Shown here: positions 52,387-62,775 of the stretch, piece by piece
Numbering within the stretch: the stretch's first letter is position 1
Layout of the letters: each line of letters begins with the position of its first letter
Assembly (NCBI RefSeq): GCF_002288005.1
Contig: NZ_CP016771.1
Location: 1,116,001-1,180,000 of the forward strand
Direction of reading: 5' to 3'
DNA: 64,000 nt
DNA from: Candidatus Nanopelagicus hibericus
Lineage (GTDB): Bacteria > Actinomycetota > Actinomycetes > Nanopelagicales > Nanopelagicaceae
Translations under genes and position numbers: made by a program
The notes under the pieces: generated by a model
What the model was told of the DNA's origin: nothing
Seen by the model: only the letters and a program-made list of their open reading frames with translations
The model's database searches: none

Positions 52387-53490
52387 TTAAAGAATTATCT
52401 CTTTGAAGATAGTAATTAAATCTAAAAAGTTCATATCAGGAGTAACACCAATTCCATCCCCAGTTGGCACAGTCAAATAACCATCATCCATCACAAATGG
52501 TGTTGTTATATCTTGTTTAAAGTATCGAGCAGAGGCTGATGTATCCCCTGGTAATGTAAAACCAGGAAGAGCAGCAAGAGCTAAATTGGCAGCTCTACCA
52601 ATACCTGTCTCTAACATTCCACCACACCAAACTGGAATCTTACTTTTCACACACAAATCATGAATCTTCACCGACTCTAAGTAACCACCAACCCTGCCCG
52701 GTTTAATATTGATAACAGTTGTAGCTTGAAGAGCTAACGCATCTTGGGCAGATTGCAATGAGATTATTGATTCATCAAGGCAGATTGGTGTCTTAACCTC
52801 TTTAGCAAGGAGTGCGTGTCCCAAAATGTCATGCTCATCCAATGGTTGCTCAATTAGTAATAAATTAAACTCATCAAGTTTTGCTAAATGTTTGCCATCA
52901 TCTCTTGAATAAGCCTGATTTGCATCAACTTGTAATGGAATTTCTGACCAAATCTTTCGAATAGTTTTGACTGCTTCTATATCCCAACTTGGTTCAATCT
53001 TTAATTTAATTCTTCGATACCCTGCGTCAACATAAGACTTAACCTCTTCAACTAGAGTATCTAAATTATTTGCAATCCCAACCGATACACCGCACTCCAC
53101 CTTACTTTTTGTAGCGCCAAGGTATGCAGCAAGTGATCTTTTCTCATCTCTTAGTTGCGCATCTAAAATTGCTGTTTCAAGTGCAGCTTTTGCCATCTGA
53201 CCACCCAAGAATGGTTTTAAAATCGTTGCCACATCTTCGGCCTTAAAATCGCCAGCCTTTTTTAGTGCTGGAAGTAAGAATCTTTTAATTAGATCAATGC
53301 AAGCGAATGTGTACTCGGGTGAATAAAGAGGCTCAGACATTGCCACGCACTCAGCCCATCCAGTTGTGCCATTCTCATTCACTACCTTCACAATCAAAAC
53401 TTCACGCGAAGTTTGGGTGCCAAATGAGGTTCTAAAAGGCCGCACTAGCGGTAGTTGAATAATTCTTAATTCAATATCTTTAATTCTCAT
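52387..53490 (-). CDS. Enolase-superfamily o-succinylbenzoate synthase / N-succinylamino acid racemase (367 aa)
   Basis: The catalytic set of the muconate-lactonizing subgroup is complete: K162-x-K164 (RRIKLKIEP), metal ligands D189 (VDANQAY), E214 (IEQPL) and D239 (LDESI), and K263 (INIKPGRVGG). The N-terminal lid is LPLVRPFRTSFGTQTSREVL. Family members do either the menaquinone step (MenC) or racemise N-succinyl amino acids, and many do both. No other menaquinone gene is in the window. The upstream gene is a GNAT that overlaps it by 4 nt, the arrangement reported for D-to-L amino acid conversion. Confidence 0.88.
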   Translation of the reverse strand: MRIKDIELRIIQLPLVRPFRTSFGTQTSREVLIVKVVNENGTTGWAECVAMSEPLYSPEYTFACIDLIKRFLLPALKKAGDFKAEDVATILKPFLGGQMAKAALETAILDAQLRDEKRSLAAYLGATKSKVECGVSVGIANNLDTLVEEVKSYVDAGYRRIKLKIEPSWDIEAVKTIRKIWSEIPLQVDANQAYSRDDGKHLAKLDEFNLLLIEQPLDEHDILGHALLAKEVKTPICLDESIISLQSAQDALALQATTVINIKPGRVGGYLESVKIHDLCVKSKIPVWCGGMLETGIGRAANLALAALPGFTLPGDTSASARYFKQDITTPFVMDDGYLTVPTGDGIGVTPDMNFLDLITIFKEIIL

Positions 53491-54188
53491 ATCCGCACAA
53501 CATATTCATTATTTTCTGAAAAGCCAATAACTTTGCCATTTTTCTCAAAAGCAGCCATGAATTTTTCCCGAACCTGCCTGCGCCATTTCATACTTTCACT
53601 TTGATCCTTAGATCTAATCGCAACTATATCTTCTGGAATTTCAATCAAAATATCACCTAGCTCCGGGTTTGTAATTAACTCTCTTGCCCTTGGTGCATCT
53701 ATATCTGTGCGCCATGAAACCATCAAACGATCTGATTCATCCCCTGCATTTAGCGCATCAGGCATATCACCATAAAAATTAGGAAAGTAACCTGAGATAT
53801 CAACCCCAAGCTTTGCAATATTTAATTTTGCATTTCTCCTTACCAATGGGTCAAAGGTCCAGGAAAGATGAGAATAATTCTTTTTCTTTGCCCAGTTCCA
53901 TTGATCAATCTTTAAAGCGTAACCAACACCTTTGTCTCGAAACTCTGGCAAGACTGCAGTCATGTGTGAATGAAGATGCAAACCACCATTTGTTGCAGGG
54001 AATGCAAAAGCTGCCCCAACAATTTTGTGATCAATAAATGCACCAGAGAGGTAAGAACCACTGTTAACCATTGCCTGTAACAAGTTTGGTGTTATTTCAG
54101 TACCTGAAGTCCCTGCCCAGGTTTTATCAAATATATCACGCGCCAGTTTTTGCTCGGTTAAAGTCAAAATCTTTCGTATAAGAATCAT
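53487..54188 (-). CDS. GNAT-type acyltransferase of COG3375 kind (233 aa)
   Basis: The acyl-CoA fold is visible in LHLHSHMTAVLPEFRDKGVGYALKIDQWNWA (about 70-100; RDKGVGYAL is the cofactor loop), followed by SWTFDPLVRRNAKLNIAKLGVDISGYFPNFYG. This W-T-F-D-P-L pattern belongs to the COG3375 group found with OSBS/NSAR enolases, in which characterised members N-succinylate D-amino acids. It has a perfect TATAAT (54197-54202, minus strand) close upstream. Start codon ATG at 54188; overlap of 4 nt with the enolase gene. Confidence 0.8.
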   Translation of the reverse strand: MILIRKILTLTEQKLARDIFDKTWAGTSGTEITPNLLQAMVNSGSYLSGAFIDHKIVGAAFAFPATNGGLHLHSHMTAVLPEFRDKGVGYALKIDQWNWAKKKNYSHLSWTFDPLVRRNAKLNIAKLGVDISGYFPNFYGDMPDALNAGDESDRLMVSWRTDIDAPRARELITNPELGDILIEIPEDIVAIRSKDQSESMKWRRQVREKFMAAFEKNGKVIGFSENNEYVVRI

Positions 54189-54368: not shown

Positions 54369-55964
54369 ATGAAATTTAGGTTTTTACCACAGTGGTTACA
54401 TGTATTTTTAAGTCGTAACATTAAATATTTTGAGACTACCATGTTTCAGAATTTTCAACTCATAGTTAATCAAGGCGAATTAATAAGGTTGCGTAAAATC
54501 ATGAATGAAATAATCTTTTATGAATCTAGTTTAATCTCTACAATTGCTAGTACAGGTAACGGTTCAGGTTTAATTCAATCAATGAAAATATTTAGATCTT
54601 GTAACTTAATAAGCACTCTGATATTCAATGAGCATCTGGTTAGAAATTACACTTTATCTAGCGTTTATCAAAAAAGTATAAGTTATCCACTTCCGCCTCA
54701 CTATTGGAATTTCTTTGAAAACAATGGAGTGAAAATCAACAAATATATGAGTTTTTTCTTATGGACGGTTTATGAAGTTCTGAGTTCTTTCAAACAGATT
54801 TATAGCACTATAAGAAAATGTTTTACGTGGAACTTGCGACAAGATATTCCCCCAAGATCTATTCTCGTATTTGGGTTAAATGAAAAAGTTTTGACCAAAA
54901 CTTCAGAAGATGAAAAATGTTTTGAAGTTTGGTTACAGAGAAACTTGAATTTTACAGGGAATATCTATGGTCTAAATCTCAATAACATTGATTCTCTTAA
55001 AACAAAAATTTCTAATATACCAGATGCAAACTTGTTTGATTACAGGCCTAGAAATTTATTGATTGCATTTAGTGCCATATTTAAGTTTAGATTTTCGGCG
55101 GGTGAATTAATCCTTATATTTAGATATTTCCTAGAGGCGTATAAATTTAGATTCCTGAATAAAGCAAATATTCAGAACATAGAAATATTTATTACTCTTG
55201 CATCTGAGAGTTGGGTAAAGCCCGTTTGGTTTAGTCAAGTGAAATTGGATTCCTCCAGAATTATTTATGTTAATTTAAGCGCCTCATCTTCTCCAACAAT
55301 TCTTAACGAAATTGAATTATTTGGTTGGGATCGTTTAAATCAGTGGCATGAAGTTTGGGCACTAGATGCTCACCAAAAGTATTTGTTTTCAACGCGCTCC
55401 ATACAGTCAGATTCCAAAGCAATTGCAGTGGGGTGCCCTTTTTGGACCGACAGGCTGGAACCATTCATCGATTCGAAAGATAAAGGCAATTACATAGCTA
55501 TTTTTGATATTCAACCAACACGAAAATTCTTAGGTTGGTCAAGCTTGTATGACTGTGGGTATTTTGATACATCCTCTATCCTAAAATTTATTACAGACAT
55601 TGTAGAAGTTTCGGCAAGGTTGGGAAAGATTTGTGTTTTAAAGTCGAAAAGAAATAGTCCGAGATATTTTGATGCTGAGTATTACCAAGGAATTGAGTTT
55701 TTAGGAAAGGAGTATAAAAATTTCATCTACGTCGATGCAGATATCGCGCCTCATAGAATTATTCAGGACTCTCTTGTGACTATATCTGTTCCCTTTACAT
55801 CAACGGCAATAATTGCTTCAGAACTTGGAGTTCCTAGTCTATTTTACGATCCAATTGGTAAAGTTTTAAGAAATGATCCAAGTGCACGAGGAACTCATGT
55901 TGTTAGTGGGCAAACTAACCTCTATACCGAACTTTGTGATTTGTTTTCAAAGAAATTACCATAA
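54369..55964 (+). CDS. PFTS-motif polysaccharide biosynthesis protein (531 aa)
   Basis: The C-terminal part has SVPFTSTAIIASELGVPSLF with the PFTS motif at 475-478, the hallmark of a family of surface carbohydrate proteins with a glycosyltransferase-like (GT-B) end. EALIASE-type helix and YDPIGKV follow. The first 170 residues are basic and aromatic with a hydrophobic patch (YMSFFLWTVYEVLS). Exact role unknown, likely a sugar transferase in surface glycan assembly. It opens a very AT-rich island of six glycan genes. Confidence 0.75.
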   Translation: MKFRFLPQWLHVFLSRNIKYFETTMFQNFQLIVNQGELIRLRKIMNEIIFYESSLISTIASTGNGSGLIQSMKIFRSCNLISTLIFNEHLVRNYTLSSVYQKSISYPLPPHYWNFFENNGVKINKYMSFFLWTVYEVLSSFKQIYSTIRKCFTWNLRQDIPPRSILVFGLNEKVLTKTSEDEKCFEVWLQRNLNFTGNIYGLNLNNIDSLKTKISNIPDANLFDYRPRNLLIAFSAIFKFRFSAGELILIFRYFLEAYKFRFLNKANIQNIEIFITLASESWVKPVWFSQVKLDSSRIIYVNLSASSSPTILNEIELFGWDRLNQWHEVWALDAHQKYLFSTRSIQSDSKAIAVGCPFWTDRLEPFIDSKDKGNYIAIFDIQPTRKFLGWSSLYDCGYFDTSSILKFITDIVEVSARLGKICVLKSKRNSPRYFDAEYYQGIEFLGKEYKNFIYVDADIAPHRIIQDSLVTISVPFTSTAIIASELGVPSLFYDPIGKVLRNDPSARGTHVVSGQTNLYTELCDLFSKKLP

Positions 55965-56166
55965 TTAGTAAGTGCCTTTTGGTTAAATGTATCTATACTA
56001 AGTTGATGATTACTGCGGGTGCTGATCGAGGATATTTGTCCAATTCTCCTGTGAATAATATGTGGCAACACTGGAATTTCAAACTAGTACACGTAAACCA
56101 TCGACTACCCCATAACTTTCTGAATTACAACTACGTCGGTTTTAATCTATCTTTAATATATTAAAT

Positions 56167-56172
56167 AGGAGG
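56167..56172 (+). promoter_or_regulatory. Strong ribosome site deciding a GTG start
   Basis: AGGAGG lies 8 nt before the GTG at 56181 and fixes the start of the GT8-like gene. The 200 nt before it carry no convincing gene. Confidence 0.7.
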
Positions 56173-56180
56173 TTATATTC

Positions 56181-57140
56181 GTGGAGAAAGGTTGTTCGGA
56201 AGAGTTAATTAAGGGTAAAAGAGACTACATAGTCACAATTGCAATAGGTGACAAGTACTTAACTGATTGGGAACAATTCGCATTACCTTTTTGGACAAGT
56301 TATTGCAAAAAATATGGATTAGGACTTATAGTAATTTGCAAAGATTTAATTGAACCGGGCGATGTTACTTGGAAGAAAGCAACTTGGCAGAAATTTCTGA
56401 TTGGAGAATATACAAAAAAATTCTATCCGCACGTTGAACGAGTATGTTATTTAGATACAGATATTTTGATCAGCCCATTAGCGCCAAACGTATTTGATTT
56501 TCACAAAGATGGAAGCATGAGTCTTGTCTCACTATTCCACCGATTGCCATATAGCCGGACCACCACTCTAGAAAAACTAACGTGGTTCAGGAATCAAAGT
56601 AGTGAAGGTCGTTATCCACTAGATTCTGCAATTTATATGGGGATCTCAGACCTATTTAATTATCATGGACTTGCAGCACAAGAAGATTATGCCTGCGCAG
56701 GTATGTTTATTATGGATACTTCAATTCACTCTAAAACTATGCATCAATTCTTTTTGACCGTTGATAGTAGTATTCACACAATTACGAATGGAGGAGATCA
56801 AACTCATTTCAATTTTCTCGCTCAAAATAGCTTTCTAATTAACTGGCTATCTTACAAATTTCAATCCATTTGGAGCTACGAAGCGGCAAATTATTATCCT
56901 TCTGTATTTTTTGATTGCTACTCGGATCACACCTATTTATCAATTCAGAATGCACTCATAAACAATTACTTTCTTCATTTTGCTGGTGGTTGGAGTGAAT
57001 GCCAGCAATGGAAAGATCCCAAAGTATTTCAAGAGAATATAACTTTGGGAAACATCTCAAATTTAATTGAATACCAGAATAAAGCTCTCAAAAGCGGAAA
57101 GCCGGTAGGGCATATTAAATTTCTAAACGGTATGGGGTAA
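56181..57140 (+). CDS. GT-A glycosyltransferase, family 8-like (319 aa)
   Basis: YIVTIAIGDKYLTDWEQFALPF starts the nucleotide-sugar fold. VCYLDTDILISPLAPNVFD carries the metal-binding D92-x-D94. CAGMFIMDTSIHSKTM (about 176-191) and GGDQTHFNFLAQ (about 209-220) match the acceptor side of GT8-like enzymes. Near the end, NYFLHFAGGWSECQQWKD would be the H-x-x-G metal/sugar loop. It adds a sugar, donor unknown. It is 5 nt before the AsnB-like gene. Confidence 0.8.
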   Translation: MEKGCSEELIKGKRDYIVTIAIGDKYLTDWEQFALPFWTSYCKKYGLGLIVICKDLIEPGDVTWKKATWQKFLIGEYTKKFYPHVERVCYLDTDILISPLAPNVFDFHKDGSMSLVSLFHRLPYSRTTTLEKLTWFRNQSSEGRYPLDSAIYMGISDLFNYHGLAAQEDYACAGMFIMDTSIHSKTMHQFFLTVDSSIHTITNGGDQTHFNFLAQNSFLINWLSYKFQSIWSYEAANYYPSVFFDCYSDHTYLSIQNALINNYFLHFAGGWSECQQWKDPKVFQENITLGNISNLIEYQNKALKSGKPVGHIKFLNGMG

Positions 57141-57145
57141 GAATA

Positions 57146-58930
57146 ATGTGTGGAATTATTTTTGAAATGGATAACAAAATATGCGATGAAGTGAATTTCA
57201 AATACGCTCTTGAATCTCAGCACCATAGGGGTCCAGATGGTTCGAATTACAAGGTTTTGCAATCAGGAAAGGTGATAATTGGAAACAATAGATTAGCAAT
57301 AATAGATAAGAGTGGTGGTAGCCAGCCAATTACCAGCTCAGATGGTCAGGTGGTTATCACATTTAATGGTGAAATTTTCAATTCCCGCGACCTAAGAAAT
57401 GGCTTGGAAAAAGCAGGAATGAAATTTAATTCTAGCCATTCAGATACTGAAGTGATTTTACAAATGTACTTAAAATTTGGGATTAAGTTTATAGAGCAAA
57501 TAAATGGAATGTTTGCGATAATAATTGTAGATTTGAAGACTCAGCATACCTTTGTTATTCGAGATCGCTTCGGAATGAAACCAATATATTTTAAAATTAA
57601 TGGCAGTAGATATGTTTTTGCTTCTGATCTAAGAGCAATTAAGATTTTATCAAAAAATAATGAGATATGCCAAGATTCTGTAGCGGAGTTCATGGGACTA
57701 GGGTTTATCACTAGTCCCAATACAGTTTATCAAAACATTATTTCTCTTCAAGCAGCTTGTTATATGGATATTGACATGATTTCGGGGAAATCAACCATCA
57801 ATAATTGGTGGACCCCACCGGTCGATGAATTTGGGGACATTAATTTCGAAGAATCCGTTAATTTAGTTCGTAAAGAATTTACAAGCGCTATTTCAAGGTG
57901 GACTACTTCTGATTATCCAATTGCGCTTTCACTTTCAGGAGGGGTTGATTCATCATCAGTACTCATCGCGTGTCTCGAAGCTAAAATTGAGGTCAATCCC
58001 TTTTTTATGGGGTTTAAAGGCTTCTCTCTATCCCGCTGGGATGAAAGTAGTGTAGTTAAAGGTTTCACTGAGGTTTTCGGAATTAACTACAACAATATTG
58101 AAATGACTCCTCAAGATTTAGTTCTTAATCTAAATAATATCGTAAGCCACCTCGAACAACCATATGGTGGAGGTATTCCTTCATGGAAGATTTTTTTGGA
58201 AATGAAAAAATTTGGCTATAGAGTAGCTTTAAATGGTACGGGTGGGGATGAACTATTTGGAAATTATAACAGAGCTACAGACCTACCTTCAAATGTATTT
58301 GACGATATAGAAAGTTTCAAACTAAATTATTTGAATAAATTCTATAAAATCTACCCTTATGAGATTAATGATCTGCTTATGGATAACACTAGTGAGCGGT
58401 ATATAGATAAATTGTTTCATAAAGCTCAAAGATACCAGGATTTAGAAATAGAGAAAAGAAGTGCACTTTTTGACATGGAAACACAATTGACTGATGAATT
58501 TCTCATAATGATAGATAAACTTTCAATGATGAATTCTATAGAAGCTAGAACTCCGTTTCTAGACCATATCTTCTTTGAACAAATCCATAGAATACCAAAT
58601 AGAGTTAAAAACATTGAAGGCTCTTATAAACTTCTACTAAAAACTGCTTTTGGTGATTCTTTGCCCACATTTCTAAAACAAGCACCTAAAAAAGGGTTTT
58701 CCTTACCTTTATCTATTTGGTTTAGGGGAGAATTGAGAGAACTATTGATAAGTAAAATTCTAGACGAAGAATTTATCGAATGTTTTCATTTAAACAAAGT
58801 TATAATTGCTCAAACTCTTGATCAATTTCTCGCTGGAGATAATTCCCGAGTTTTATTCATATGGAGGTTATTCATGCTTTCCTTTTGGTTGAGGTCTGTT
58901 CATCTGAATCAATCGTTTGAAAAACAATAA
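57146..58930 (+). CDS. Asparagine synthetase B-like amidotransferase (594 aa)
   Basis: The glutaminase domain begins MCGIIFEM with the nucleophile C2, HHRGPDG (26-32), NNRLAIID and NGEIFN. The synthetase domain has the ATP-pyrophosphatase loop SLSGGVDSSSV (262-272), GTGGDELFGNYNR and NSIEARTPFLD. In glycan loci such enzymes amidate uronic acids or other sugar acids instead of aspartate. The neighbours are all glycan genes, so a sugar-carboxamide role is likely. Residue set is complete. Confidence 0.9.
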   Translation: MCGIIFEMDNKICDEVNFKYALESQHHRGPDGSNYKVLQSGKVIIGNNRLAIIDKSGGSQPITSSDGQVVITFNGEIFNSRDLRNGLEKAGMKFNSSHSDTEVILQMYLKFGIKFIEQINGMFAIIIVDLKTQHTFVIRDRFGMKPIYFKINGSRYVFASDLRAIKILSKNNEICQDSVAEFMGLGFITSPNTVYQNIISLQAACYMDIDMISGKSTINNWWTPPVDEFGDINFEESVNLVRKEFTSAISRWTTSDYPIALSLSGGVDSSSVLIACLEAKIEVNPFFMGFKGFSLSRWDESSVVKGFTEVFGINYNNIEMTPQDLVLNLNNIVSHLEQPYGGGIPSWKIFLEMKKFGYRVALNGTGGDELFGNYNRATDLPSNVFDDIESFKLNYLNKFYKIYPYEINDLLMDNTSERYIDKLFHKAQRYQDLEIEKRSALFDMETQLTDEFLIMIDKLSMMNSIEARTPFLDHIFFEQIHRIPNRVKNIEGSYKLLLKTAFGDSLPTFLKQAPKKGFSLPLSIWFRGELRELLISKILDEEFIECFHLNKVIIAQTLDQFLAGDNSRVLFIWRLFMLSFWLRSVHLNQSFEKQ

Positions 58931-58965
58931 ATGACATTATCATCGAAGCAATGTAAGGTTTGCTT

Positions 58966-59778
58966 ATGCTTTCAATAGAGGTCGTTTTTAGTAGAATGCA
59001 TTCACTCTACAGAAATTTGGGTTTGCAGATTTTGGGCGGGTACTCAAATTATCTTGTGCAACCAACAAATGGAGCTCAGTTTAATTTTGTGGCTGATGAT
59101 ACATTTCTAAAGTCTACAAGTGGTGGGATTGCTAATGATGAAGCAACTTTTTTGTATGGGATTTGCCGATTTTTACAGCCAAAAAAAATCTTAGTTATTG
59201 GTAATTCGTATGGCGTGAGCACCTTGTTTTTATCATTAGTAAATCTAGAATCAGATTTAGTTGCGCTTGATAAATTTCGTGTTAATGGGAATGCTGTAAC
59301 GCGGGAGTTGCTAAAAGACATGCACCATAAAACTGTGATTGAAGGATCTACTCCCGAAGATTTAATCGCAATTATTGATAGGTATTTAGGAGGAGCCGTT
59401 GATTTTTGTCTAATTGATGCAGTCCATACAGATGAAGTACAAACTGCTGAATTCAAAATTCTTCAACGCTACATGTCAGCTAAGTCTGTTATTGTATTTC
59501 ACGATGTGATTAGTACAGATTTGATGAAATCTTTCAATCAATTGAGAGATTTAGATAATACATTCGATTTTAAATTAGCTACAAAAACGAGTTCAGGTTT
59601 AGGTTTGGCAATTAAAGGTGACTTAGAGCCAGAATTTGAGAGCTATCTTGCATATTTCACTCAAAATTTAGATACTGTTTCTAGATTTAGTTTAGCTATT
59701 GACACGCTTAATCTGTCAAGATATTTTCCTGCCGAATCAATAAAAGCTTTTAAAATTCCGCCTCACCCTCAAACTTGA
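58966..59778 (+). CDS. Class I SAM methyltransferase, Methyltransf_24-like (270 aa)
   Basis: The core runs ILVIGNSYGVSTLFLSLVN (motif I, about 76-94), LVALDKFRVNG (motif II), and DFCLIDAVHTDEVQTAEFKIL with VIVFHDVIST (about 143-180), the L-I-D-x-x-H and FHD pattern of the TylF/Methyltransf_24 group. Start ATG at 58966 is preferred to the TTG at 58960 because AAGG stands 7 nt before it. Last plus-strand gene of the island; likely O-methylates a sugar. Confidence 0.8.
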   Translation: MLSIEVVFSRMHSLYRNLGLQILGGYSNYLVQPTNGAQFNFVADDTFLKSTSGGIANDEATFLYGICRFLQPKKILVIGNSYGVSTLFLSLVNLESDLVALDKFRVNGNAVTRELLKDMHHKTVIEGSTPEDLIAIIDRYLGGAVDFCLIDAVHTDEVQTAEFKILQRYMSAKSVIVFHDVISTDLMKSFNQLRDLDNTFDFKLATKTSSGLGLAIKGDLEPEFESYLAYFTQNLDTVSRFSLAIDTLNLSRYFPAESIKAFKIPPHPQT

Positions 59779-59855
59779 TTAGAGCTACTATTAGACATTT
59801 GACTTTATTTGCAAAGCCCTTAAAAGGCATATGACTTAATTCTTTAAAAATAGTT

Positions 59856-60647
59856 TCAAAAATTATTATTCACAAATAAAAAGCGATTGCCAGGAGAATT
59901 CTTAATTACAGTGAAACCTACTCCGTATAGTAGGTTTAATACTTCTGGAAAAGTCGAATCCTCAGTGATTCCTTTTTCAAAACCTAAGTCCACGGTTATG
60001 TAATGAATTTTTTCAAACAACTTATCACAACCCTTAAGAACTTCAAACTCTGCACCCTCAGCGTCAATTTTTATCAACCCAATTTTTTGCTTAACTAGAG
60101 TGTCAATTCTAGATACCTGAACATCTATTACTTGTTCTACTTTTAATGGCTGATAAATTGAAGAATCTGAAGACTCTGTTGAAATATAAAATTTGACCAC
60201 TCCGTCAAAATCGCTAATGCAAGTATTATAAATGGAAGAACTAGTCAATCTGTTTAATTCTAAAATTTCATAATCTAGAGGTGATGGTTCAAACCCAATA
60301 TAATTATTTTTTGGAAAGCAAAATTGGAATTCACCAGCATTAGCACCTACATCGACTATAAGTTCATCTTCAGATAGCTCTACAAAATCACAATTATATG
60401 AATTGCTTAATCCTTTAATCCTTGCATCAAAACCAAGATGATATAAATCCACTCTTGACCGCAAAAAATAAAATTTTTTGTTGTTAACTACCATATAGTA
60501 TCGATGATCCTTAAACTCATACTTAAATTCTTTATTCAGAAATAAATTCATGAACTTGCAATAATTTTTTCCCATTAACTTCGACTGCATATAGCGCAAT
60601 AAATGCACTTTGTTATGATTTGTCAATTTATTCAAATATAAAAACAC
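59856..60647 (-). CDS. FkbM-family methyltransferase (263 aa)
   Basis: VDVGANAGEFQFCFPKNNYIGFEPSPLDYEIL (about 99-130, motif I and the E-P-S that binds SAM), SRIDTLV and LIKIDAEGAEFEVLKGC (about 196-212) are the classical FkbM marks, with VDLGFEKG near the end. FkbM enzymes methylate sugar hydroxyls. It faces the plus-strand island tail-to-tail across 77 nt with no clear terminator. The Phe/Tyr/Lys-rich N-terminus and high AT fit a transferred gene. Confidence 0.9.
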   Translation of the reverse strand: MFLYLNKLTNHNKVHLLRYMQSKLMGKNYCKFMNLFLNKEFKYEFKDHRYYMVVNNKKFYFLRSRVDLYHLGFDARIKGLSNSYNCDFVELSEDELIVDVGANAGEFQFCFPKNNYIGFEPSPLDYEILELNRLTSSSIYNTCISDFDGVVKFYISTESSDSSIYQPLKVEQVIDVQVSRIDTLVKQKIGLIKIDAEGAEFEVLKGCDKLFEKIHYITVDLGFEKGITEDSTFPEVLNLLYGVGFTVIKNSPGNRFLFVNNNF

Positions 60648-60719: not shown

Positions 60720-60765
60720 AAGTGCGCCCGCAGGGATTCGAACCCCGAACCTTCTGATCCGTAGT
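60720..60765. repeat. 46-bp direct repeat, distal copy of tRNA-Arg 3' half
   Basis: Identical to 62700-62745, which is the 3' half of the tRNA-Arg gene (anticodon arm 3' side, variable loop, T-arm, acceptor 3' strand). Same orientation. The identity stops abruptly at the anticodon loop, as expected for a site-specific integration duplication. Confidence 0.93.
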
Positions 60766-60779
60766 TGGCCAGTAAATCT

Positions 60780-60802
60780 GAGCTTTTAGTTCCCTAAAAC
60801 TC
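60780..60802. other. Hairpin inside the split tRNA remnant
   Basis: GAG and TTTTAG pair with CTAAAA and CTC around TTCC, with one unpaired C. It lies in the 83 nt between the two parts of the tRNA-like remnant. Function unknown. Confidence 0.4.
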
Positions 60803-60848
60803 ACCTTTACTTGCCTATCTTTCCGACTGTGCTTACGCCCAATCAGAA

Positions 60849-60870
60849 AGTCAAATGCTCTATCCAGTTG
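60849..60870 (-). other. Remnant of a tRNA D-arm
   Basis: On the minus strand CAACTGGATAGAGCATTTGA matches the tRNA-Arg D-arm CAACGGATAGAGCATCTGA apart from one substitution and one inserted base. With the 60720-60765 copy it makes a split, non-functional tRNA-like pair: there is no 5' acceptor strand. The TAG stop of the secreted-repeat gene lies 6 nt upstream of it. Confidence 0.6.
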
Positions 60871-60875
60871 TCCTT

Positions 60876-62414
60876 CTACTTAACCTTATCACTATCTAAT
60901 GTTTCACTTCCAGCCTTTAATGAAACTGTATAACCAGAAAGATTTGTTTTTACATTTAGTTTGGCATCACCCTTGCTATTAGTTTGTACAGGTAGAGTTA
61001 TGGTTTTAGCACCTTTTTTAGTAGCTGTAAGTTGAAGTAGGGAGTTAGCAAATTCAGTATTAACTGATACTGATGATTGATTCTTACTTGTTTTGTTTGT
61101 GACTAATTGACTCTCTTTCTCGACAGGTGTAAGTATTTGTTGCGTTTGCAGAACTGTAGAAGACATAGGAATCAGTAATACCCCATTTGATTGCTGAGGA
61201 GTGGTGGAAGTTGCCCCTGCAGCTCCACTGGTTGCAGTTCTAGTGTCAGTTGTTGGACTTTGCGTAGTTGCCGATACTGTTTTGGTGTCAGTAATAGTTG
61301 GATTTTGGTTTGCTGGTTGAATCCAGGTCTTTACACAGTAAGCAAACCATCTGTCATCACTTCGTGTAGTTGTGAAGTTCATATCAACACCTACAGCTTT
61401 TCCGGAGCCAGTAGGGCAAACAAAGGATTTATAGGTATTAGTTGCCTCCCATTGAGCTTGAGTTATTCCCGCTGAGCTTGTAATTCTTGATCCTGGCAAT
61501 TCTGCCCCGTTGGATGCTCCAGGTATTGGGTCTGCTGTTTGAATAGTTATAACTGTTTTTGTGTCGGTATTTGTGGTGCTAACGGTGGCTGTTTTAGTAT
61601 CACTATTTTGAGGGACAGTTTCTTGTACTGTTGATGGATTAAAGGTTTTGACACAATAAACATATCTCACGTGCTTGCTTCGATCAGTAGTAAAAGCTAA
61701 ATCAACACCAATACCTCTACCAGAACCAGTTGGGCAAGTATGAGATTGATAAGCACTTGATGCCTCAAAATCTACCTGAGATTGACCAGGTGCACCTGAA
61801 ACTCTAGTTCCAGGAACTTCAGCACCATTAGTAACACTTGGCAATGGATCGGGAACGGTTGCCGTTGGTGTCGTGGTGGCTGTTTTAGTATCAGATGTGG
61901 AACTTGTTGTTCCGCCTGAGGTTGTTGGAGTCGTGGTAGCGGTTCTAGTTTCAGATGCAGGAGTTGAACCTGTACTTCCAGAGGAAGATGGCGCAGTTCC
62001 AACTGGGTTTGCGCAAACTCCACCGCTGGATGTTCCACCACTTGGACTAGTAATTGGTCCCCATTGAAAACATTTTTGCTGGCCAGGGTTTGCTGTGTTC
62101 CAAGCTAGTGATTGCGCAAGTGCTGCTGCTTGAGCTGCTGCTAAATCAGCACGATATTTTGCCTCCGCATCAATTGCTGCTGATGGTCGCCAAGTTTTAA
62201 CACAGTAAGTAAACGTCTGTTTTGTCGTTGCATTAACTTCAATTCCACTGCCTGATCCACTTGGGCAACTAATTGCTTGCTGACCTGAAACTCTAGTTCC
62301 AGGAATTTCCGCACCATTTGCCACACCCGGGAATGGATCAGTATCTGCACTTGCAAAAGGCACAACAATTGAAAAAGATATTGTTAACAAAATGACCTTA
62401 ACAATCTTGATCAT
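60876..62414 (-). CDS. Secreted three-repeat protein of unknown family (512 aa)
   Basis: A signal peptide (MIKIVKVILLTISFSIVVPFASA) is followed by three copies of a domain of 50-75 residues, at about 26-77, 189-260 and 295-367. Each opens DPxPGxxNGAExPGTR, has a CPxGSGxGIxVD core with one Cys and ends YCVKTW with the second Cys, so one disulfide per domain is likely. Between them lie Thr/Ser linkers with DTKTAT-type hexapeptides (ETRTAT, DTKTAT, DTKTVS, DTRTAT). A helical segment (80-103) and a C-terminal beta-rich domain (about 440-512) complete it. Ribosome site AGGAGG precedes the ATG. It lies between the two tRNA-Arg repeat copies. I do not recognise the repeat; surface adhesion or wall binding is a guess. 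Confidence 0.8.
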   Translation of the reverse strand: MIKIVKVILLTISFSIVVPFASADTDPFPGVANGAEIPGTRVSGQQAISCPSGSGSGIEVNATTKQTFTYCVKTWRPSAAIDAEAKYRADLAAAQAAALAQSLAWNTANPGQQKCFQWGPITSPSGGTSSGGVCANPVGTAPSSSGSTGSTPASETRTATTTPTTSGGTTSSTSDTKTATTTPTATVPDPLPSVTNGAEVPGTRVSGAPGQSQVDFEASSAYQSHTCPTGSGRGIGVDLAFTTDRSKHVRYVYCVKTFNPSTVQETVPQNSDTKTATVSTTNTDTKTVITIQTADPIPGASNGAELPGSRITSSAGITQAQWEATNTYKSFVCPTGSGKAVGVDMNFTTTRSDDRWFAYCVKTWIQPANQNPTITDTKTVSATTQSPTTDTRTATSGAAGATSTTPQQSNGVLLIPMSSTVLQTQQILTPVEKESQLVTNKTSKNQSSVSVNTEFANSLLQLTATKKGAKTITLPVQTNSKGDAKLNVKTNLSGYTVSLKAGSETLDSDKVK

Positions 62415-62699
62415 CGCAGGACCTCCTAAGATTTAGGTAATTTAAAGAATTCTTAAGTCTCAACTATCTCATTTGTTGTGCAAAATGGGTATATAAACTT
62501 GTAAGTATTACTGTATTTAATTGAAAGCTCTGCAAACTGAGCGTGAGGCAAAGTTAACCAACCCCACCTTGTTCAATTTCTCTTAACCCCTAGTTAATAC
62601 ACCCCAGCTAGAAATATCTCCTAAAGTGGACTGATTACTAGATCAGTAAGTTGCTTCTGATTAGGAATAAGAAAGTCAGTAGTTTTATACTGAAACGTA

Positions 62700-62745
62700 A
62701 AGTGCGCCCGCAGGGATTCGAACCCCGAACCTTCTGATCCGTAGT
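62700..62745. repeat. 46-bp direct repeat, copy within tRNA-Arg
   Basis: The 3' half of the intact tRNA-Arg gene, identical to 60720-60765. Together they bracket 1.93 kb holding one gene. Confidence 0.93.
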
Positions 62746-62775
62746 CAGATGCTCTATCCGTTGAGCTACGGGCGC
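62703..62775 (-). tRNA. tRNA-Arg (anticodon ACG)
   Basis: Acceptor GCGCCCG pairs with CGGGCGC, D-arm TAGCTCAACGGATAGAGC, anticodon stem TCTGA-CTACGGA-TCAGA, T-arm CGGGGTTCGAATCCCTG. Anticodon ACG is the substrate of TadA, encoded at 43572-44021. The gene is intact, but its 3' half is duplicated about 2 kb away. Confidence 0.97.

Follow-up and report, generated by a model that had tools for sequence, protein, structure and literature searches.

The CIMEs of streptococcal ICEs carry cargo between recombination sites, have no recombinase and possess ends like those of integrase-bearing relatives. The same organization is seen in CALINs and hitcher elements, in which cargo without a recombinase lies between recombination sites at ends shared with integrase-bearing relatives (PMC11389934). 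Islander-type tRNA islands have a regenerated tRNA at one end and its displaced 3′ fragment at the other, with a tyrosine integrase in the full members (PMC4383910). Tycheposons, which measure 4–200 kb and carry a tyrosine recombinase, and additive islands occur in streamlined plankton including Methylophilaceae, and like the element described here they combine streamlined aquatic hosts, tRNA borders, repeated tRNA ends and delivery of cargo (PMC10872708). Attachment sites of the Int-Y tyrosine integrases of actinobacteriophages also lie in tRNA genes, with cores at the anticodon loop and a common core of 30–45 bp that rebuilds the tRNA (PMC10865867). Finally, integron attC sites are recombined by IntI, an arm-less tyrosine recombinase, and conserve site structure over sequence (PMC2727003, PMC11641012).

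The locus considered here lies in a 64-kb stretch (G000:C1:1116001-1180000, hereafter the window) of a complete 1.22-Mb genome. We consider it highly probable that window positions 60720-62700 (∼1.98 kb) are a non-autonomous integrative element that entered tRNA-Arg(ACG) at its anticodon loop, a cargo-only derivative of an integrase-bearing family, presumably moved in trans. As in tRNA islands, an intact tRNA and a displaced 3′ fragment border DNA that is absent from close relatives; unlike the Islander-type islands, this islet has no integrase, spans only ∼2 kb with one gene, and carries at its left end a tRNA mimic and two hairpins that do not figure in the abstract on those islands (PMC4383910). 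At 1.98 kb and without a recombinase it also falls outside the tycheposons. In contrast to CALINs, hitchers and CIMEs, it targets tRNA genes with an end structure of its own, and its mobilization in trans is putative. The Int-Y integrases described so far possess an arm-binding domain and recognize arm-type sites (PMC10865867), whereas the integrase of the present family is predicted to be arm-less. In contrast to the attC system, the target here is a tRNA gene with the anticodon arm as its core, and a role for folded DNA is only putative; moreover, the relatives' integrase scored 29.4 bits against the integron integrase profile (cut-off 265), which places it outside IntI and the integron/CALIN integrases. 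The attC site may serve as a working analogy for the folded left end and not as a claim of membership.

The islet and its site in congeners

An exact 46-bp direct repeat (60720-60765 and 62700-62745, minus strand, spacing 1980 bp) brackets the islet and corresponds to the 3′ half of tRNA-Arg(ACG) plus 2 bp, beginning in the anticodon loop. No third copy of its 32-bp core was found in the window at up to three mismatches (chance expectation 0.00). ARAGORN called a tRNA at 62702-62775 (minus strand) only, the intact tRNA-Arg(ACG) that is the insertion target and is also recognized by the Rfam tRNA model; the distal copy at 60720-60765, which matches the tRNA exactly over 44 nt starting in the anticodon loop, was not called. 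This distal copy would be the 3′ half that the host tRNA had before the insertion displaced it, and the 3′ half of the intact tRNA would derive from the element. The interval between the repeats is filled by a single ORF (60876-62414, minus strand) encoding a 512-aa, secreted-looking protein with a signal-peptide-like N-terminus and internal repeats, and neither the ORF list of the islet nor a protein-family search revealed an integrase between the repeats. The preliminary description, a 46-bp duplication of the tRNA-Arg 3′ half broken at the anticodon loop around a one-gene islet with a secreted repeat protein as sole cargo and no integrase, is borne out in each of these points.

Across the genus, the interval from a GNAT gene (53487-54188) to tRNA-Arg is variable. 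It holds a glycosyltransferase-like gene in the closest relative (G013), three genes in G014, two of them dehydrogenase-like, a lipoprotein gene in G015 and one other gene in G016, while in G021 the site is empty, with a few bases between GNAT gene and tRNA. Beyond the 3′ end of the tRNA, each congener compared has a different sequence. The cargo gene was found in none of 24 other congeners, with G010 showing a weak C-terminal match only. Because the cargo gene is absent from these 24 congeners and the contents of the interval vary, the islet is a gain and not a fixed feature; an arrangement fixed in all relatives, which the preliminary description had named as evidence against an integrated element, is thus not what these genomes hold. 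The empty site that it had proposed to look for exists in G021, but no empty site carrying the window's own left flank was found among the congeners.

The window also contains, from behind the core GNAT gene up to the islet, a cluster that includes genes for an asparagine-synthetase-like protein, a glycosyltransferase-like protein and an FkbM methyltransferase (54369-60647). The cluster is a second, larger variable block beside the same tRNA, since it has no homologue in the compared loci at the tRNA-Arg site.

The element family, its ends and its integrase

Streamlined freshwater actinobacteria are very abundant in lakes, and their gene acquisition is poorly known. Judged by homology, the islet is an integrase-less member of a tRNA-targeting family with conserved ends and swapped cargo: elements of 0.5–6.3 kb in freshwater Nanopelagicales-like actinobacteria, each of which duplicates the 3′ half of its target tRNA. 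Sixteen elements, the window's included, have the tRNA on the same contig together with an exact 40–45 nt copy of the 3′ half starting at tRNA position 29–33; ten are at tRNA-Arg(ACG), five at tRNA-Lys(CTT) and one at tRNA-Arg(TCT). The family offers a concrete vehicle for gene gain: its elements are small, sit at tRNA genes, often lack an integrase and for the most part bring in secreted proteins. Searches of the literature on tRNA islands of these actinobacteria and on hairpin-bearing attP sites in tRNA genes, conducted mostly outside subscription journals, returned no description of it.

The window's left end and its right-end palindrome are both homologous to the ends of integrase-bearing relatives. 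The left end (60722-60876) is 97 per cent identical over 155 bp in G012, where adjacent core DNA is 75 per cent identical, and the same genome has the window's right end and a noncoding module (62551-62628) around other cargo; the module is shared at 84–91 per cent identity with elements in G012, G001 (at tRNA-Lys) and G015. The right end (62631-62699, minus strand), which over 62630-62698 shows 93 per cent identity to G012 and 80 per cent to G224, contains the palindrome CTGAT-N6-ATCAG at 62631-62646, +56 from the tRNA. This deviates from seven relatives, integrase-bearing and integrase-less Arg elements alike, in which CTGAT-N5-ATCAG stands exactly at +52 (shuffle rate 0). G282 retains the right end up to about +66, with a cargo gene beginning after it in the place expected for the integrase, which suggests that the right end needed in cis is at most ∼66 bp.

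A search of 296 genomes of the window's bacterial family with R1, a covariance model built on the left end, gave 25 loci of at least 41 bits, against a background of ∼21–28 bits from intact tRNAs; the E-values are rough. In a class-wide sample of 395 genomes, matches to R1 were confined to that bacterial family, and a search of 84,980 species genomes with an exact left-end pattern matched six contigs only. Five of these are titled actinobacterial assemblies (one a single-cell genome), and the sixth (CAMCXZ010000012.1), titled a Bifidobacterium breve MAG, is probably a mislabelled freshwater actinobacterium. Most of the relatives are draft assemblies.

Full members encode a tyrosine integrase of 248–255 aa that starts 92–98 bp past the tRNA (6/6 members with the tRNA on the contig), and the distal 3′-half copy is perfect in all five integrase members whose contig reaches that far. 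Carriers are G248, G159, G157, G001 and G034, the last at tRNA-Arg(TCT); G201 also has the integrase, with the tRNA off the contig, and in G176 it is broken at 200 aa. The catalytic R, H..R, H and Y are invariant in the alignment, and the protein is ∼24 per cent identical to phage integrases. Since its structure model (pLDDT 84.8, pTM 0.60) is closest to arm-less constructs of lambda Int (residues 75-356) and Tn1549 Int (residues 82-397), the integrase is, as modelled, without an arm-binding domain. An origin from a phage, phage satellite or plasmid found no support: there are no phage genes, and neither integrase nor left end was found in viral collections.

Several further loci were noted in these genomes. 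G012 holds two tandem elements (L034:2585-5184) in which the inner copy of the tRNA 3′ half has decayed and the distal copy is exact, an order not accounted for by accretion in simple steps. A 0.47-kb islet at tRNA-Arg(TCG) in G006 (L043:94-637) has a 34/37-nt copy of the 3′ half and one small lipoprotein-like gene. Two integrase-bearing elements (L033:3390-6817 and L092:1135-3287) also encode a helix-turn-helix protein with weak similarity to replication initiators, as well as a zinc-ribbon, GIY-YIG-like endonuclease. A 21-bp motif, CTAGAAATATCTCCTAAAGTG, at 62608-62628 of the window recurs in small islets at tRNA-Leu(TAA) (L090, L097, L098, L102) that duplicate the 3′ end of tRNA-Leu and carry secreted cargo but lack the double-hairpin end.

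The structured left end

Read in the sense of the tRNA (minus strand of the window), the left end begins with a conserved AGGAC (60870-60874), defined by alignments, and continues through a tRNA mimic (60851-60869), hairpin 1 (60819-60850) and hairpin 2 (60766-60818) to the displaced 3′ half. The mimic copies the D-loop, the 3′ strand of the D-stem and the 5′ strand of the anticodon stem of the target. Together with the two hairpins, which occupy the anticodon loop, it makes the distal end a ∼110-nt structure. The window's stretch folds at −44.4 kcal/mol (z = −7.2), and when several of the elements are folded in full, both hairpins end up enclosed by a re-formed anticodon stem. The D-arm piece and the hairpin previously noted at this end were real, the first being the mimic and the second hairpin 2 (60767-60815); hairpin 1, the better conserved of the two, had escaped the preliminary description. 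Rfam 15 gave no family match over the structure, only tRNA fragments and chance hits.

In all 16 elements the mimic matches its own target tRNA better than the two other targets, with anticodon-stem pairing imperfect in some relatives (e.g. G224 and G260). Hairpin 1 has 82.5 per cent of its cells paired and double changes in 11 of 14 pairs, with a covariation score of 0.411 against 0.187 ± 0.020 for shuffles and at most 0.14 when partners were slid by 1–3 columns; alignment A5 was fitted to the modelled structure, and the unfitted MAFFT alignment A4 also exceeded every shuffle on covariation. Its loop, GUAA in the window, is GUAA, GAAA or GCAA (GNRA) in 21 of 23 distinct sequences, and tandem G.A/A.G columns lie beneath it. 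The excess of G.U over A.C, 29 to 3 in this hairpin (in seven and two pair columns, respectively, the cell counts not being independent events), marks the tRNA-sense strand as the folded one. Hairpin 2 keeps its structure (a hairpin in 16/16 elements, z from −3.8 to −6.3) and a near-constant length of 42–43 nt (13/16) while its sequence differs between element types; in the window it is 53 nt.

The structure is more likely to have a role in cis in recombination or maintenance than to control a neighbouring gene, since a 565-bp element in G016 with no ORF of at least 60 aa retains it. An intrinsic terminator for the cargo gene was rejected (the hairpins lack a following T-run, and conservation extends to the tRNA mimic), as was a group I intron in the tRNA (an insert of ∼80 nt, no acceptor 5′ strand and no Rfam match). 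A remnant of an interrupted tRNA lies immediately behind an FNR gene in G288 (L171:8360-8505, minus strand): the 5′ half of a tRNA-Arg, with its acceptor strand, is joined to both hairpins and to a 3′ half that has decayed. A spliced insert was rejected here, an intact tRNA-Arg(ACG) being present elsewhere in the genome.

The structured left end is probably part of the attachment site, either as a folded DNA strand or as RNA. In the duplex, elements that hit the same tRNA differ in the bases to the left of the anticodon-loop crossover, and the half-site that matches is part of the mimic, at a distance of ∼75 nt. A fold would restore it beside the crossover, and a folded attachment site is therefore favoured. 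The likeliest form of this role is a folded tRNA-sense strand, with an RNA role nearly as likely. An RNA, transcribed from about AGGAC and comprising the mimic, hairpins and 3′ half, might aid the integrase in finding or synapsing the tRNA gene, or might form a leader that regulates the integrase in the circle, and the islet would still be non-autonomous. We regard this as a possibility short of a preference: the GNRA loops, the excess of G.U and the tandem G.A/A.G columns are all in keeping with RNA, as are −10-like hexamers about −15 from AGGAC in several elements, but a TANNNT box upstream of AGGAC, present in 9 of 16 elements, is not enriched (73 of 500 shuffles reached nine), and a leader function alone is at odds with the retention of the structure by integrase-less and ORF-less elements. 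A tRNA-mimicking double hairpin beside the crossover raises the testable question of whether a tyrosine recombinase can use a structured copy of its target. Somewhat less probably than not, the family may represent a class of tRNA-targeting element that is apparently undescribed. To choose its tRNA and recombine with it, the arm-less tyrosine integrase would rely on a structured end that mimics the target, be it a folded single DNA strand or an RNA with a copy of the D-loop and anticodon stem of the tRNA, and specificity would reside partly in this mimic and partly in the protein.

Mobility and cargo

As a non-autonomous element, the islet would have arrived as a circle joined to the tRNA by an integrase acting from elsewhere. 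The tRNA-sense strand would fold, loop out the two hairpins and re-form the anticodon stem as the recombination core, and the tRNA would be rebuilt with the element's 3′ half while that of the host was displaced to the far side. Action in trans is suggested by the relatives at the same tRNA that have both of the same ends and carry an integrase, a result that agrees with the preliminary choice between a mini-element served by an integrase in trans and a shrunken island.

The islet may nevertheless be stranded, in that the complete window genome contains no relative of the element integrase; PF00589 is represented there by just two proteins, of 306 and 310 aa, which are regarded as XerC and XerD from their lengths and their counterparts in congeners. 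This absence of a helper counts against mobilization in trans, and it fits an immobile island that lost its integrase by deletion and was inherited vertically in the lineage, a history that is compatible with a non-autonomous element and is itself unlikely. The integrase of G176 is broken, and the clean loss of an integrase behind the right end in G282 shows how such a shrunken element can arise. Against it, the ends of the islet are intact, its repeats are exact and its left end is near-identical in the distant congener G012, and because of these features recent movement of the element is suggested. Tandem duplication of the tRNA with decay of the distal copy to a half, the other source of repeats raised in the preliminary description, can be dismissed: a tRNA-like D-arm piece does lie near the second copy, but that copy lacks the acceptor 5′ strand and has two covarying hairpins in its anticodon loop, and the same architecture occurs at three different tRNAs in many species.

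A profile search placed the 512-aa cargo protein in no protein family above the cut-off. Its C-terminal domain matches the cargo of the G176 element in a direct local alignment, a match that BLASTP missed. Unrelated secreted cargo ORFs at other loci (L088, L090, L091, L098, L101, L102, L167, L169 and L176) share a common tail of approximately ITCxKGKxTKKVTAxxPKCPxGYKKK, which is possibly a surface-retention signal.
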